Assembly: GCA_948443805.1 (NCBI GenBank)
Contig: CAOJUB010000001.1
Span: 1 to 64,000, forward strand
DNA from: an uncultured Clostridia bacterium
GTDB lineage: Bacteria > Bacillota > Clostridia > Oscillospirales > UBA644
Length of the DNA: 64,000 nucleotides
Direction of reading: 5' to 3'
The first letter of the stretch is position 1; each line of letters starts with the position of its first letter. Under the pieces are notes generated by a model. The model was not told the DNA's origin. It did no database searches and saw only the letters and a list, made by a program, of their open reading frames with translations. Of the stretch, positions 33,345-40,166 are shown one piece after another. Position numbers and translations under genes: made by a program.

Positions 33345-36300
33345 ATGAAGAGATTTCTGAGAATTGCATTACCGGCTATTCTTATCGGGCTTCTCGCTGT
33401 TTCTCTTTGTTCCTGCTCCAGCGGCGGGCTCAAGGAAAATAACGACTGGCAGAATAATATCAGCGCCGTTTCTCAGGCAAAAGAGGCTGCGCATGCGCCG
33501 ATCGTTTCTTATGTGAACGATGAGGAAGCCAAGAAAGCGGACATCCGTTCTGCTTCCGGTTACCTGTCTCTGAACGGAGAATGGGATTTTGCCCTTTATG
33601 CAAACAATGGGGAAGTCCCTGCGGATTTCGCTGCGAAAGGCGGCGTAAACTGGGATAAGATTTCGGTTCCCTGCAACTGGGAGCTGCAAGGCTACGGCAC
33701 GCCTCTTTACACCGACAATACGGTTTACCCCTGGGCAAAAGAGGTGACTGCGGCGAAAGTTTCCGATTCGGATAACCCCGTCGGTCTTTATCAGAGAACT
33801 GTGGAGATTCCGTCCGAATGGGACAAAAAAGAAGTCTTTGTGAATTTTGACGGCGTTGCTTCTGCGTACTATGTTTACGTCAACGGCGCAATGGTCGGCT
33901 ATTCCGAAGACACCTACACTTCGCATGATTTCCGGATTACCGAACATTTGAAAGCCGGTCAGTCCAATACCATTGCGGTGAAGGTTTATAAATTTGCCGA
34001 TTCTTCCTGGATTGAGGCGCAGGATTCTATGAAACTCGGCGGTATTTACAGAGACGTTTATCTGTATGCCACGCCGCAGGAAAGAATCCAGGACGTTCAG
34101 CTTTTAGTGAACCTGAATGAGGAAATGACCACGGGTCTTGTGGAGACCACGGTTGATATCCAGTCTTTTAAGGACAAGGACGCGGAAAGCGTTACCCTTC
34201 AGGTTCTGGCTGCCGACGGCAGTGAGTTTATTGCTGAAAAAGCCGTTGGCAATAATGTTGCTTATGGAAAAGACAAGGCTTCTAACGGCGCGCTTACCTG
34301 CACGGTAAAAGGCCGTATCGCTCTTTCCGAGCCCCACTTGTGGAGTGCGGAAGATCCGTATCTGTATACGGCGATTATTCGTCTGAAAAAAGCGGACGGT
34401 AGTGTGATCGACACCGTCAGTCAGAAATTCGGCGTACGGGTTGTTAAACTGGCAGCCGATGATAACGGCAATCAGTCGTTGACGGTCAACGGCGTTCCGG
34501 TTGCTTTGTATGGAATTAACTATAACGAGCATTCTGCCGTGACCGGCGCGTATGTTTCCTATGAAGAGCTGGAAGCCGACGTAAAACGTCTCAAAGAACT
34601 GAACGTAAACGCCGTTCGTTCCGCCGGCCGGCCGTTGAGCATTGATTTCCTGAATCTCTGCGATGAATACGGTTTGTATGTAATTGACGATATGAATCTT
34701 GCCAGCAAACCGTCCTCCAATCTCGGCGATCAGTCGATCCCCGGCGATCAGTCGATCTGGCAGGGCGCAATCATCGACCGCTTGACAAGCGTCGTGGAGC
34801 GGGATAAAAATCACCCGGCTGTCATTGTGATGGCAATTGGGTCGGAATCCGGTTCCGGTTCGGAATTTACCATTCTGAAAAACCATTTGCAGGGCGCCGA
34901 CCCGTCCCGTTATATCATGTATGACGGCATGGACGACGCTTCGGATATTCTGGTAGAAGTCAATCCTGATTTTAACGCCGTTTATGAATATCTGAACAGC
35001 GGCAACACGAAAAAACCGATGATCCTTCACAATACGGCTCTTGGCCTTTTGAACGGCGCCGGCAATTTGGCGACGTATACGGATTTGATCGCAGAAAACG
35101 ATCGGGTTCAGGGCGCGTTCCTTGGCAATTATATCGATTATGCGATTTATTATCCGACCGATATTTCCGCTGTACGCGATACTTTCAAAAATACTCCGTA
35201 TGCGGAGAATATGAATTTGTATCAGCTCACTTACAGCGGCACCGGCGCTTGGGGCGAGGCAGAAAAATATGCTTCCGGTTCTGCGGCGCTTTCGGGTATT
35301 GTTTCGGCGGACAGAACCGAGCAGTCCGATGCTGCGGAAATCAAACGGGCGTATTCGCCGATTGTGATTACAGCGGAAAATCTTTCAGCCGGACAGTTTA
35401 AGGTTGAAAACCGGAATATGTTCCGGAATCTGGAAGATCATTATGTCATTGAATACCGGATCAGCCGCGGTGCGCAGGAAGTTGCCGCCGGTACAGTTGA
35501 AGGCCTTTCGGCTGCTGCTGGACAGAGCGCTTCGTTCACCGTTCCTTATGGCGGGCTGGAAGCCAACGCGGAATATTTCATTGACTTTACCGTGAAATAT
35601 AAAAATGCGCCGGCATGGGCGGCTGCCGATACGGTCGTCACCGCGGAACAGTTTGATATCACGGCTTTTGCTTCTATGCCGAAAAACGCGGTATCTTCGA
35701 CTTCCGGTGCTGCGTTCAACACCACGATTTTTGTTACGCCTGAAGTAAAGACGTCCGCAATTGACGCGGCTTCCGGTGTATTCTATATTTCCAATAATTC
35801 GCTGACCGATCTGAATTCTATTTTCTCTCTTTCTTATAAAGTATATGAAGAAAATGGGCAGGATCCCTATGTGCAGCAGGAAACCGGAGAAATCTGGAGA
35901 TCTCCCGGTAAGATTGTTTATGCCGAAGGAACGCTTGACGGATTCAGTATTCCGGCAAAGACTTCTTACGGCAGAATCCAGCTTCCGTATACGGTCAATG
36001 CCGTCAGCGGCGGCGCTTATTCGGTCGAGATTATTCTGACTACAAAAGCGGCGGTCGGCAATGTACCTGCGGGCTATGAAATGAAATATACCTTTACGGA
36101 ACAGTCTCTGGGCACGCCGATTCCGTTTGCTGTCGACGAGGCCAGAACGCCGGTTGCGGTAATCGATCCGAAGACCAAGAAACCGATGACCGATGAGGAA
36201 TCCGGTTTGGTTATTATGAGTGGTGGCGATCCGCTTCCCACCGCGACGCCGGTTCCCGAAGGCGAAGAAGAAACCCGGATCGAATATGATCCGTTCATCA

Positions 36301-38345
36301 CGGTAGATAACGGAAACGTTCATCTGGAAGTAAATTCCGATACCGGTTTGGTTTCTGACTTTACGGTCAATGGGGTTCAGATTCTGACCAAAAACGGAAG
36401 AAACGGATCGTTAATCGGAAACCTGTACCGTCATCCTACTGGCGGCGACCTCAAGAGCGAGGTTACCGATGCCGAAAATCTGGATAATATGCTGAATCTC
36501 AGTAAAAACGCCGATAATAAAATCCTTGACGGCGGCGTTGACGTTCAGGTTGTTTCTCCGGATCATCTTCGGTTCACCATGAAGTATGTAATGGTTTCCT
36601 ATCCGTATGAGTCTTTCCGGACCTATACGCTTGATACCGAATATACGGTCGTTTATGATTTGTACGGCAATGGTGAACTGGTTGTTTCGGTTCTGTATGA
36701 CCCGTCCTTGTTCAGCGGTGATATTCCGTTTGAAATTTCCAATATTTTAACGCTTGCCGACGGTTACGAAACCATGTCCTGGTATGGCCGCGGCCCGGGC
36801 GAGAATTATGCGGATAAACTCGGCGCTTCCCGGATCAGTGTTTATAAAGATATCAAAGTTTCCGATCAGATTGAAGATTATCTGTATCTGACGGGCGGTT
36901 CTGATAAAACGAATGTCCGCTGGGCTTCTTTTGTCAATAAAGAAGGCAACGGGGTTTTGATCAGCAGCGATACCGGAAACTTCTCGATGAATGTTTCGAA
37001 TAACTATCCGTGGGATACGGCGGATTATGCAAGAGATTCCGGTGCGAAGAATACGATTGTCCGGGTGATCGGCGCTTCAAGGGGCGTCAATGCCGGCGAT
37101 ATTACCAATTCAAAATATGCGGGTATTGCGGCCTTTGTAGACCCCGGAAAAGCTTATAGCTTCACCTATAAACTTTCTCCGCTGACGGCGTCTTCCAATG
37201 CGGAACAGAAAGCGGCTGAAAGAATCGACGGAACGGTTCTTCCGTCTACCGGAACGGTAACGGTCAATTCCGGCGATATCTTTGCTTTGCAGAATGCCGC
37301 CGATGCAACGCTCTTCCTTTCTTCGACAGCCGATGGGGTTGCCTTGAAAGAAGGGTACGGTAGCAATTCTCAGGTCTGGATCCGAGAGGATGCTTCCGAT
37401 ATTGGTATCAAGGGCGCGTTCCGCTTGAAGAATCTTGCTACCGGCGAGTATCTCACTCCGGTTGCCAGCAATTCAGGCGAAGCTCCTTCTCTGGAAATCG
37501 GTTTGGGCCAGTATCACGGCCAGATGTGGCAGAATTTCGTTACCGACTCGAACAACGAGCTCAGTGCGGTAAACATTACCATGTCGGTCAATGCCATGGA
37601 TGTAAAAAATAAATATTATATGGGTTCCCGGGTCGCTTTGAAAGCGAAATCCGGTAAATCCGAAGCCTGCTGGACGTTCCATCCCGTAGAGGGTGTAACC
37701 GAGGGATATATCCTGGAAAACATGTCTACCGGTTATTATCTGTCTGCAGTCGGCAGCATCTCTTACCGCGATCCGGTTGTTCAGGCTATGGCTGAAAGAT
37801 ACAGAAATTACAGCCCGTCTATCGACTGGACGATCTACGATGAGATTATCAGCGCGCAGCCGCAGTCGGCCGCTACCGAGGAGTGGGTTCCGACTTCCGG
37901 AAGCGTTACGCAGTGGCAGCTGCTGCCCAGCGCTTCTCAGAAATGGCAGTTTGTCGCGGCGGCCGGCGGATTCCAGATTGTGAACACCACAACAGGAAAC
38001 GCTCTGACTATTGCCGACGGAAAACTGACAGAAGCTGCAGCAAGCGGCGCTTCCAATCAGATATGGTCTGTCAACAGCGACGGAGGTCTGGTTTCTATCG
38101 TCAATCCCGAGAGCGGTCTTGCGTTGGCTTCTGCGGTTGAAAAGATTAAAATGACGCAGCAGGAAATGGATGCCAATTTCATTACCGATGAATCGGAAGC
38201 TTACTTTAACCGGGTTGTTCTGGATGTTAGCGCCTTCAATCATCTTCCGAATCAGCTCTGGAATTTGGCGGACGATTCTCAGCTGAATATTAATATCGAA
38301 GCTGGAAGCAACTGGTTTGACGTGACCGCGTCTTCCGTCAGCTAA
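33345..38345 (+). CDS. LacZ-like GH2 lipoprotein with degenerate active site and C-terminal beta-trefoil lectin-like domains
   Basis: 1666 residues. A lipobox (LCSC, Cys about 23) anchors it outside the membrane. Residues about 70-620 follow the GH2 beta-galactosidase order: sugar-binding domain (NWELQGYGTPLYT), immunoglobulin-like domain, TIM barrel. About 980-1300 matches the LacZ small-chain domain (WYGRGPGENYADK). The tail (about 1300-1650) has repeated ricin-type segments (QIWS, QLWN, QKWQF). The acid/base Glu is kept (E501 in IGSESGSG), but the nucleophile position of LILCEYAHAMGN is MILHNTALGLLN, giving N563, and the substrate His of SHYPN is G428. Hydrolysis is therefore doubtful; glycan binding is the likelier role. 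Own promoter and terminator. Confidence 0.85.
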   Translation: MKRFLRIALPAILIGLLAVSLCSCSSGGLKENNDWQNNISAVSQAKEAAHAPIVSYVNDEEAKKADIRSASGYLSLNGEWDFALYANNGEVPADFAAKGGVNWDKISVPCNWELQGYGTPLYTDNTVYPWAKEVTAAKVSDSDNPVGLYQRTVEIPSEWDKKEVFVNFDGVASAYYVYVNGAMVGYSEDTYTSHDFRITEHLKAGQSNTIAVKVYKFADSSWIEAQDSMKLGGIYRDVYLYATPQERIQDVQLLVNLNEEMTTGLVETTVDIQSFKDKDAESVTLQVLAADGSEFIAEKAVGNNVAYGKDKASNGALTCTVKGRIALSEPHLWSAEDPYLYTAIIRLKKADGSVIDTVSQKFGVRVVKLAADDNGNQSLTVNGVPVALYGINYNEHSAVTGAYVSYEELEADVKRLKELNVNAVRSAGRPLSIDFLNLCDEYGLYVIDDMNLASKPSSNLGDQSIPGDQSIWQGAIIDRLTSVVERDKNHPAVIVMAIGSESGSGSEFTILKNHLQGADPSRYIMYDGMDDASDILVEVNPDFNAVYEYLNSGNTKKPMILHNTALGLLNGAGNLATYTDLIAENDRVQGAFLGNYIDYAIYYPTDISAVRDTFKNTPYAENMNLYQLTYSGTGAWGEAEKYASGSAALSGIVSADRTEQSDAAEIKRAYSPIVITAENLSAGQFKVENRNMFRNLEDHYVIEYRISRGAQEVAAGTVEGLSAAAGQSASFTVPYGGLEANAEYFIDFTVKYKNAPAWAAADTVVTAEQFDITAFASMPKNAVSSTSGAAFNTTIFVTPEVKTSAIDAASGVFYISNNSLTDLNSIFSLSYKVYEENGQDPYVQQETGEIWRSPGKIVYAEGTLDGFSIPAKTSYGRIQLPYTVNAVSGGAYSVEIILTTKAAVGNVPAGYEMKYTFTEQSLGTPIPFAVDEARTPVAVIDPKTKKPMTDEESGLVIMSGGDPLPTATPVPEGEEETRIEYDPFITVDNGNVHLEVNSDTGLVSDFTVNGVQILTKNGRNGSLIGNLYRHPTGGDLKSEVTDAENLDNMLNLSKNADNKILDGGVDVQVVSPDHLRFTMKYVMVSYPYESFRTYTLDTEYTVVYDLYGNGELVVSVLYDPSLFSGDIPFEISNILTLADGYETMSWYGRGPGENYADKLGASRISVYKDIKVSDQIEDYLYLTGGSDKTNVRWASFVNKEGNGVLISSDTGNFSMNVSNNYPWDTADYARDSGAKNTIVRVIGASRGVNAGDITNSKYAGIAAFVDPGKAYSFTYKLSPLTASSNAEQKAAERIDGTVLPSTGTVTVNSGDIFALQNAADATLFLSSTADGVALKEGYGSNSQVWIREDASDIGIKGAFRLKNLATGEYLTPVASNSGEAPSLEIGLGQYHGQMWQNFVTDSNNELSAVNITMSVNAMDVKNKYYMGSRVALKAKSGKSEACWTFHPVEGVTEGYILENMSTGYYLSAVGSISYRDPVVQAMAERYRNYSPSIDWTIYDEIISAQPQSAATEEWVPTSGSVTQWQLLPSASQKWQFVAAAGGFQIVNTTTGNALTIADGKLTEAAASGASNQIWSVNSDGGLVSIVNPESGLALASAVEKIKMTQQEMDANFITDESEAYFNRVVLDVSAFNHLPNQLWNLADDSQLNINIEAGSNWFDVTASSVS

Positions 38346-38400: not shown

Positions 38401-38596
38401 TTTCATTCTTTCGCAGAATCAGGAAAGTGAAGATCAGGTCAGCTTGTTTTCTGTTCGGTTTTGAATTGTTAGTTTTTCGGTATGATTTTCTTGGATCGGG
38501 TCGGATAACCGGTGATATGTTTCGTTCTTTTTCCTGGAAAATTTTGAATAAGAGCCAGCTGCTGCATGGACAGCTAGTTCAAAAGAAAAGACAAAA

Positions 38597-38628
38597 AAAT
38601 CCCTCGCGAATAGGATGCGAGGGATTTT
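38597..38628 (-). terminator. Terminator of the DacF-like gene
   Basis: A 12-bp stem (aaaatccctcgc at 38597-38608, gcgagggatttt at 38617-38628) with a T run on the minus strand. Between this and 38400 nothing was recognised. Confidence 0.85.
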
Positions 38629-38633
38629 TCTTA

Positions 38634-39962
38634 TTATTTTTCTTCCGGTTTATGAAAGTTTACACGCTGGTGGCTGGTGATTTTCTTTTTCTTTTGTTTT
38701 TTGCGGTTTTTAAGATAAGTGATAAAAATATAAATGACGATCAGAAGCAGCAGTACCACAATAACAAGGCGAACCGAAGTCTTTTTGAAAAAAATGGAGA
38801 TTTTTTCTGTGTAATTCTGCACCAGATCCAGTTCTGCCTGCGTTTGGGTAATCAGTGCGGTTTCTCCGTAGACGGTATCTTCATAGATTAATGTGATTTT
38901 TCCGACGGCAGTTCCTTTTTCGATTGGCGCCTGCAGTTCGTTTGGTAAGTCGATAATTCGTTCAAGTTTTTCGGAATCCAGATTCTTCGGCAGCAGCGCC
39001 TGAATGGTTTCTTCCGGAATTAAGATGAGCGTGTCTTTGCCTTTGGCTTGCTTGACTTTGATCTCGGAAACCGGCGTGCTTTTATCCAGCAGGGTAACGG
39101 TGTGAAAGGATGCGACCGAATAGTCCAGAAGTTTCCGGATATCCGGAAAGGTTTCAGTTACCGGTTTGGATGATATTACTACGGCGATAAACCGGGAACC
39201 GGTGGAATTGTTTGTGCTGACCATGGAAGAACCGATCCGGGTGTCTCCGTGCACTGAAAGCCCTGATGCTTTGGGGGAAAAGGATTCATCGTTCTGATCA
39301 ATGATTGCGTTCCGAGTGTATAAAATCCGTTTTTTTCCATTGACGGTCAAATTGGCCGTGGCAATGTTGGATTTCGACAGGATTGCATCAAAGGTCGCGG
39401 CCTGCGCCGCGATTTTTGCCGCGTCGATTGCCGTGGTTTTTGCGCTGGTTCCTTCTTCGTAATATCCTGCCGGTTCGGTAAATACCGTGTCTGCCGCGCC
39501 GAGTTCGGCTGCACGCATATTCATTTGTTCAATAAAAGCGTTGATATTCCCGTCGCTGAGATACAGCGCGATCGCATAGGCTGCTTCCTGCGCATTTCCG
39601 ACTAAAACGGCGGTCATCAGGTCTGAGAGTGAAATTGCATCGCCTTCGGTCAATTCTGCGGAACTTCGCTGCTTTGTCAGCGCGTTTACCTGATTGGGCA
39701 CCGTAATTTCCGTTTCGAGATCCTGCCCTGATTCCGCCAGAAGAACACAGGTCATCAGCCTTGGAAGAAAACCGCAATATCCGGTTTCAGCTTCGTTTTT
39801 GCCAAAAAGAACGCGGCCGTTTTTTGCATTGAGAATGACGGCTTTTTCGGCTGTTATTTCCGGAGGGGCGACACTTTGTTCCGGCGGCTCTTCGGCCAGA
39901 GAAGGGGCCGCTGCAGAAAGAAAAAAACAGAGGACGATGAAAAAAAGGAATGTTTTCTTCAT
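38634..39962 (-). CDS. DacF/PBP5-like protein lacking all three penicillin-binding motifs
   Basis: 442 residues: signal peptide (about 1-23), a D,D-carboxypeptidase fold (about 35-270), a PBP5-type C-terminal beta domain (about 290-380), a transmembrane anchor (about 400-421) and a basic tail. The fold is recognised by AVILNAKNGRVLFGKN, INAFIEQMNMRAAELGA and DTVFTEPAGYY. The active-site SxxK is replaced by F65-L-P-R68, the SxN motif reads V-G-N at 121-123, and the KTG region reads SVH near 236-238. No beta-lactam-type acylation is expected. It may bind peptidoglycan stems or regulate an active carboxypeptidase. The frame is open throughout, so this is not simple decay. Confidence 0.85.
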   Translation of the reverse strand: MKKTFLFFIVLCFFLSAAAPSLAEEPPEQSVAPPEITAEKAVILNAKNGRVLFGKNEAETGYCGFLPRLMTCVLLAESGQDLETEITVPNQVNALTKQRSSAELTEGDAISLSDLMTAVLVGNAQEAAYAIALYLSDGNINAFIEQMNMRAAELGAADTVFTEPAGYYEEGTSAKTTAIDAAKIAAQAATFDAILSKSNIATANLTVNGKKRILYTRNAIIDQNDESFSPKASGLSVHGDTRIGSSMVSTNNSTGSRFIAVVISSKPVTETFPDIRKLLDYSVASFHTVTLLDKSTPVSEIKVKQAKGKDTLILIPEETIQALLPKNLDSEKLERIIDLPNELQAPIEKGTAVGKITLIYEDTVYGETALITQTQAELDLVQNYTEKISIFFKKTSVRLVIVVLLLLIVIYIFITYLKNRKKQKKKKITSHQRVNFHKPEEK

Positions 39963-40166
39963 GAAGTTCCCTTTCAGTCGATGACGAGTTAAGATAAAAG
40001 GTTGGAAAAAGATATAGTTTTTTTACAATTTTATGGTACTATGAATAAAAGAAATCGTTGTTTCACACAGAAAATCCGATTTTCTTTTCTGCTTCAATTA
40101 TAGCATATATCCCTTATGTTTTCAATATTATATTTTTGAATTTTTAGAAACAGGAGCTGATATTCC

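Follow-up and report, generated by a model that had tools for sequence, protein, structure and literature searches.

The window analysed here, a stretch of 64,000 nucleotides from an uncultured Clostridia bacterium, carries on its minus strand (positions 38634-39962) a single open frame of 442 amino acids, read from ATG to stop codon, which Pfam matches, alignments and orthologues in genomes of the same GTDB family identify as an S11-family pseudo-D,D-carboxypeptidase. Its features, all on the minus strand, begin with a signal peptide (residues about 1-24, 39891-39962; sequence MKKTFLFFIVLCFFLSAAAPSLAE; helix at 2-17 in the model), followed by a Peptidase_S11 domain (residues 29-265, 39168-39878; PF00768, 89.7 bits against a cut-off of 27.6) and a PBP5_C domain (residues 286-374, 38841-39107; PF07943, 46.8 bits against 21.2), the two-domain arrangement of PBP5-type proteins. 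A C-terminal transmembrane helix (residues about 397-419, 38706-38774; model helix 395-431) is supported by a KD hydropathy of 3.24 at residues 399-417 and leads into a basic tail (38637-38705), presumably cytoplasmic, in which R433 is invariant in the family and is followed by I or V. The protein is therefore presumably bitopic, with external S11 and PBP5_C domains, one membrane-spanning helix and a basic tail on the inner side. In E. coli PBP5, by contrast, the anchor is an amphipathic helix. The DacF/PBP5-like assignment first made by reading the sequence is thereby upheld, along with its signal peptide and membrane anchor, the latter now specified as a true transmembrane helix.

Structure prediction, suggested in that reading as a check, gave an AlphaFold2 model with a mean pLDDT of 90.9 and a pTM of 0.74, for which Foldseek returned PBP5, PBP6, PBP4 and the single-domain K15 DD-transpeptidase (best target-normalised TM 0.87, for 1es4). 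Homology to peptidase S11 is thus indicated by PF00768, by the model and by Foldseek alike, and the S11 fold is predicted to be intact.

Genomic setting

A promoter-like site, TTGAAA-17-TATAAT (11/12 matches; 40097-40125, minus strand), lies upstream of the gene and a terminator-like inverted repeat (38595-38629) just 3' of its stop codon, each recognized by consensus match only; the repeat is listed on the plus strand, and its symmetrical stem may serve both strands. The gene probably forms a single transcription unit in the window. Convergent with it is an adjacent GH2 gene (33345-38345, plus strand), encoding a beta-galactosidase-like protein of 1666 amino acids with a C-terminal ricin-B lectin match. 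Aligned to LacZ-type enzymes, this protein has Asn (HNT) in the column of the nucleophile Glu (CEY) and keeps the region of the acid/base Glu (GSES). The original prediction had drawn attention to this neighbour as another pseudoenzyme, and the Asn at the nucleophile column agrees with that description, but the adjacency itself was absent around the orthologues examined, which makes a functional link unlikely.

No conserved operon partner was found for the orthologues, whose neighbours differ between genera. Most of genus g2 has the orthologue near beta-propeller, SMC and GHL10/amidase genes, and in most sampled g2 members (L039, L041, L043, L047 and related loci) its flanking genes encode a PF09826 beta-propeller and a large Big_2/GHL10/Amidase_3 protein; methyltransferase/Hsp33 neighbours occur in g7 and partly in g4, and a member of the O-acetylhomoserine sulfhydrylase cluster is a neighbour in the window and in one other genome (G005). 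Since the neighbourhood is not conserved between genera, context names no partner.

Elsewhere in the window's own genome a second S11 match devoid of the motifs (L005, 376-1926, minus strand; G000:C15:8496-10046) has EVAL, RSQ and LYG in their place, as well as a transmembrane helix and a tail that is long and acidic, with Lys/Arg at its end; a search for it in the other 19 genomes of the family at E 1e-25 gave no match. That genome also encodes three motif-intact S11 paralogues, and each of the 19 others encodes at least one, so that other proteins can carry out the D,D-carboxypeptidase reaction. Clear D-Ala-D-Ala ligase-family matches were present in 18 of the 20 family genomes, the two with weak matches only being 57-61% complete; the pentapeptide is therefore probably made, and the substrate pathway appears to be retained. 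Loss of the D-Ala-D-Ala pathway as a cause of motif erosion is thus unsupported, given these matches and the motif-intact paralogues.

Replacement of the three catalytic motifs

Phmmer alignment to the B. subtilis enzyme (3mfd) and MAFFT alignment agree in placing F65-L66-P67-R68 (39759-39770, minus strand) at the former SxxK and N123-A124-Q125 (39588-39596, minus strand) at the former SxN, and the MAFFT register, for which the conserved G234 serves as anchor, places S236-V237-H238 (39249-39257, minus strand) at the former KTG, in columns that are unconserved in the family. None of the motifs expected of an active D,D-carboxypeptidase is therefore present in the aligned catalytic columns. The original prediction had described the loss of all three, proposing an alignment with inspection of these columns; its FLPR at 65-68 and its SVH at about 236-238 both stand, while the V-G-N that it took for SxN (121-123) was two residues out of register.

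An alternative SxxK in the pocket had been named in advance as evidence against this view. None occurs in the catalytic domain, the sole SxxK of the whole protein being SEIK at residue 299, beyond it. Neither is there a K[TS]G anywhere in the 442 residues, nor a Lys or His conserved in at least 18 of the 20 family sequences within residues 36-284. Two cysteines are widely conserved (19 of the 20 sequences have C63 and 18 have C72); both are missing from family member L025, which argues against an obligatory Cys chemistry. From these sequence comparisons we strongly infer that the protein is without catalysis, and covalent binding of beta-lactams is predicted to be negative because there is no Ser nucleophile.

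Conservation of the altered motifs

Exactly one orthologue per genome was found in all 20 genomes searched in the GTDB family (7 genera, the window's own genome included), the other orthologues being 30-38% identical to the query. L66, P67, R68 and N123 are invariant in the family alignment, F65 and Q125 each occur in 19 of the 20 sequences (one member having MLPR at the former SxxK), and position 124 is either S or A, giving N123-S/A-Q. The replacements at SxxK and SxN, whose conservation in relatives had been proposed as a check, are thus fixed or nearly so across the 20 genomes. We compared 12 representatives of the family, chosen by clustering at 75% identity, with 71 motif-intact sequences, which carry S/K and S/N where the representatives hold fixed replacements. 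Nine columns are fixed in the representatives (C63, F65, P67, R68, T96, N123, Q125, V164 and V207), with residues that are rare among the 71, and five of these fall within the ten motif columns (hypergeometric P about 8e-7, post hoc), a comparison that is partly self-fulfilling, as lost motifs must differ, but that leaves the fixation of new residues unexplained on those grounds. The KTG columns (236-238), on the other hand, rank only 182, 183 and 129 of 341 in conservation within the family, and the column of the old Lys holds A, F, S or G. Taken together, the new residues fixed at SxxK and SxN and the drift at KTG suggest that two catalytic corners were refixed in these orthologues and that the motif of the substrate strand was abandoned.

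Pairwise dN/dS inside the family was 0.05-0.15; in the more distant pairs, changes at synonymous sites approach saturation. The loss of catalytic residues is therefore shared by relatives under purifying selection, as expected of a selected pseudoenzyme. A degenerate 27-base DNA pattern for [GA]FLPRxMTC, used as a probe, matched 16 of the 20 family genomes, the rest varying at residues that flank the motif or carrying MLPR; it had no match outside the family among 394 genomes sampled from the order, and among 391 sampled from the class only the window's own matched.

Possible stepwise erosion among related families

Similar long S11 proteins with a transmembrane anchor occur across the order, and many families have them with every motif intact. 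A FastTree phylogeny was built from sequences drawn by similarity to the profile of the window's family, a sampling that favours degenerate copies. In it the family is monophyletic (SH 1.0), its sister being a single sequence from family f10 (CAAK/TSN/KTS). With the motif columns excluded, these two group with f6, f11, f16, f17, f20 and f21 (SH 0.939), in an eight-family clade of 43 sequences, of which 42 lack the KTG Lys and many still have SxxK. This distribution suggests a stepwise erosion of S11 in the clade, for which a plausible order, judged from the extant sequences, is KTG first, SxN next and SxxK last. A long-branch f8 sequence is unstable, leaving the clade once the motif columns are removed, and f10 retains its Lys (KTS); for these reasons it is unproven that all KTG-eroded sequences are monophyletic, and hence that the KTG Lys was lost just once. 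It is likely that losses occurred independently, in f22, f23 and f26 among others, given this instability, the Lys kept in f10 and the sampling in favour of degenerate copies.

Several of these relatives are of interest in themselves. The f10 protein (L081 of G028) has Cys for the catalytic Ser (C-A-A-K), together with TSN and KTS, and might possess a Cys nucleophile or represent an intermediate of decay. In f6, f11, f16, f20 and f21, Asn (NYG, NAG, NSG, NVG) or some other residue commonly replaces the KTG Lys, with SxxK often kept; such loci include L029, L030, L031, L033, L084, L103, L123, L124, L130, L151 and L155, among others, and their products are possibly enzymes of altered specificity or, again, decay intermediates. 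Another group of long S11 proteins, distinct from these and belonging to f16 and f26 (L161, L164, L167, L171, L175, L177), has SxC for SxN and keeps SxxK and KTG/KSG.

Discussion

The 442-residue protein is most likely a maintained, non-enzymatic protein and not the product of a decaying gene, judging from its loss of motifs, the want of a conserved Ser/Lys alternative, purifying selection and the conservation of what replaced the motifs; in this the non-enzymatic role first proposed for it is well supported. As it is S11 by homology and fails on each catalytic motif, the appropriate annotation is S11 pseudoenzyme instead of D-alanyl-D-alanine carboxypeptidase. Our preferred reading, which we consider probable, goes a step further: that it is a selected, membrane-tethered S11 (DacF/PBP5) pseudoenzyme acting by binding, as an adaptor or regulator in the cell wall. 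Formation of a Ser acyl-enzyme should be impossible, because Phe has taken the place of the nucleophile Ser and Arg that of the general-base Lys, SxN has exchanged its Ser for Asn and its Asn for Gln, and no KTG is left. Two places, the N-terminus of helix alpha-2 and the corner formed by SxN, would have been rebuilt, as C63-x-F-L-P-R and N123-S/A-Q respectively; both are now fixed, unlike the motif of the substrate-binding strand, which appears to drift. Binding, which we propose with moderate confidence, would then take place at the rebuilt corner or on an adjacent surface. By analogy with EnvC and DipM, two degenerate LytM factors, the tethered protein would act as an adaptor for the cell-wall machinery or regulate it, its target being, for instance, an amidase or an active paralogue of the S11 family. 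That it regulates an active carboxypeptidase is possible, since the genomes of the family also encode intact S11 paralogues. The conserved corner could, alternatively, be needed solely for folding after the catalytic residues were lost.

The broader historical formulation, in which a family-wide pseudo-D,D-carboxypeptidase with C-x-F-L-P-R and N-S/A-Q, acting as a membrane-tethered regulator, is the end point of a KTG to SxN to SxxK erosion that a single group of S11 orthologues underwent in eight or more families, we advance more tentatively, as a proposal with slightly less than an even chance of holding in all its parts.

Among other explanations, the one that fares best is that the old pocket still binds stem peptides or lipid II without catalysis, as a lectin-like sensor or shield. 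In its favour, the fold is retained, a peptide carboxylate or amide could be contacted by Arg68 and Gln125, and the ligase-family matches indicate that the pentapeptide is probably available; however, in S11 enzymes the KTG strand holds the substrate carboxylate and backbone, and it is this strand whose columns vary freely in the family, while a bulky Phe occupies the place of the nucleophile Ser. Stem-peptide binding, as entertained in the original prediction, is therefore unsupported in its canonical mode, and we regard this explanation as a whole as rather unlikely; binding of a protein partner is more likely than canonical recognition of D-Ala-D-Ala. It is less probable again that the S11 domain is a folded spacer and that function resides in the PBP5_C domain, transmembrane helix and basic tail: residues of PBP5_C and tail are indeed also conserved, the invariant R433 among them, but a spacer leaves unexplained why columns that were once catalytic rank with the best conserved of the family. 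An enzyme with a new chemistry in the remodelled site, working for instance through Cys63 or Arg68, might account for the conservation of C63 and C72 and the invariance of R68 and N123, but the domain offers no conserved Lys or His as a partner and the family member without either Cys speaks against it, so that we hold this to be very doubtful. Decay of a pseudogene, or an assembly error, to which the absence of catalytic residues in the neighbouring GH2 and in the second S11 protein of the genome might lend some colour, can safely be rejected in view of the open frame, the low dN/dS and an orthologue in each of 20 separately assembled genomes.

Preserved in single copy throughout a family, a dead carboxypeptidase with a selected new motif offers a test of a non-enzymatic role for the penicillin-binding fold, and its graded relatives, in which KTG is lost with SxxK kept and then all is lost, would make the order of loss traceable. 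Pseudoenzymes of LytM type regulate cell-wall hydrolases, but no counterpart with the S11 penicillin-binding fold, nor any description of an S11 or PBP pseudoenzyme, came to light in a search of openly available literature, which omits most subscription journals. Two reports document degenerate LytM factors as a precedent for regulating cell-wall enzymes (PMC10336132, PMC8360153).

Like the degenerate LytM/M23 factors EnvC, ActS and DipM, the protein is a secreted peptidoglycan-hydrolase fold without catalytic residues that is kept by selection; those factors differ in having an unrelated metallopeptidase fold and known partners. L005 resembles it as a motif-less S11 match with a transmembrane helix, and is set apart by its long acidic tail. 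With the S11 D,D-carboxypeptidases (B. subtilis DacB, 3mfd; E. coli PBP5 and PBP6; Streptomyces K15) it has the S11 fold, secretion and membrane anchoring in common, and with the two-domain members PBP5_C as well; it departs from them in its replaced motifs, its fixed FLPR and N-S/A-Q, its unconstrained KTG strand and its transmembrane helix with a cytoplasmic tail. The long motif-intact S11 proteins of its own order (f2, f3, f7, f12, f13, f15, f18 and most of f23), at about 430-535 amino acids, have the same domains, a C-terminal transmembrane helix and mostly an Arg/Lys-rich tail, but have kept SxxK, SxN and KTG.
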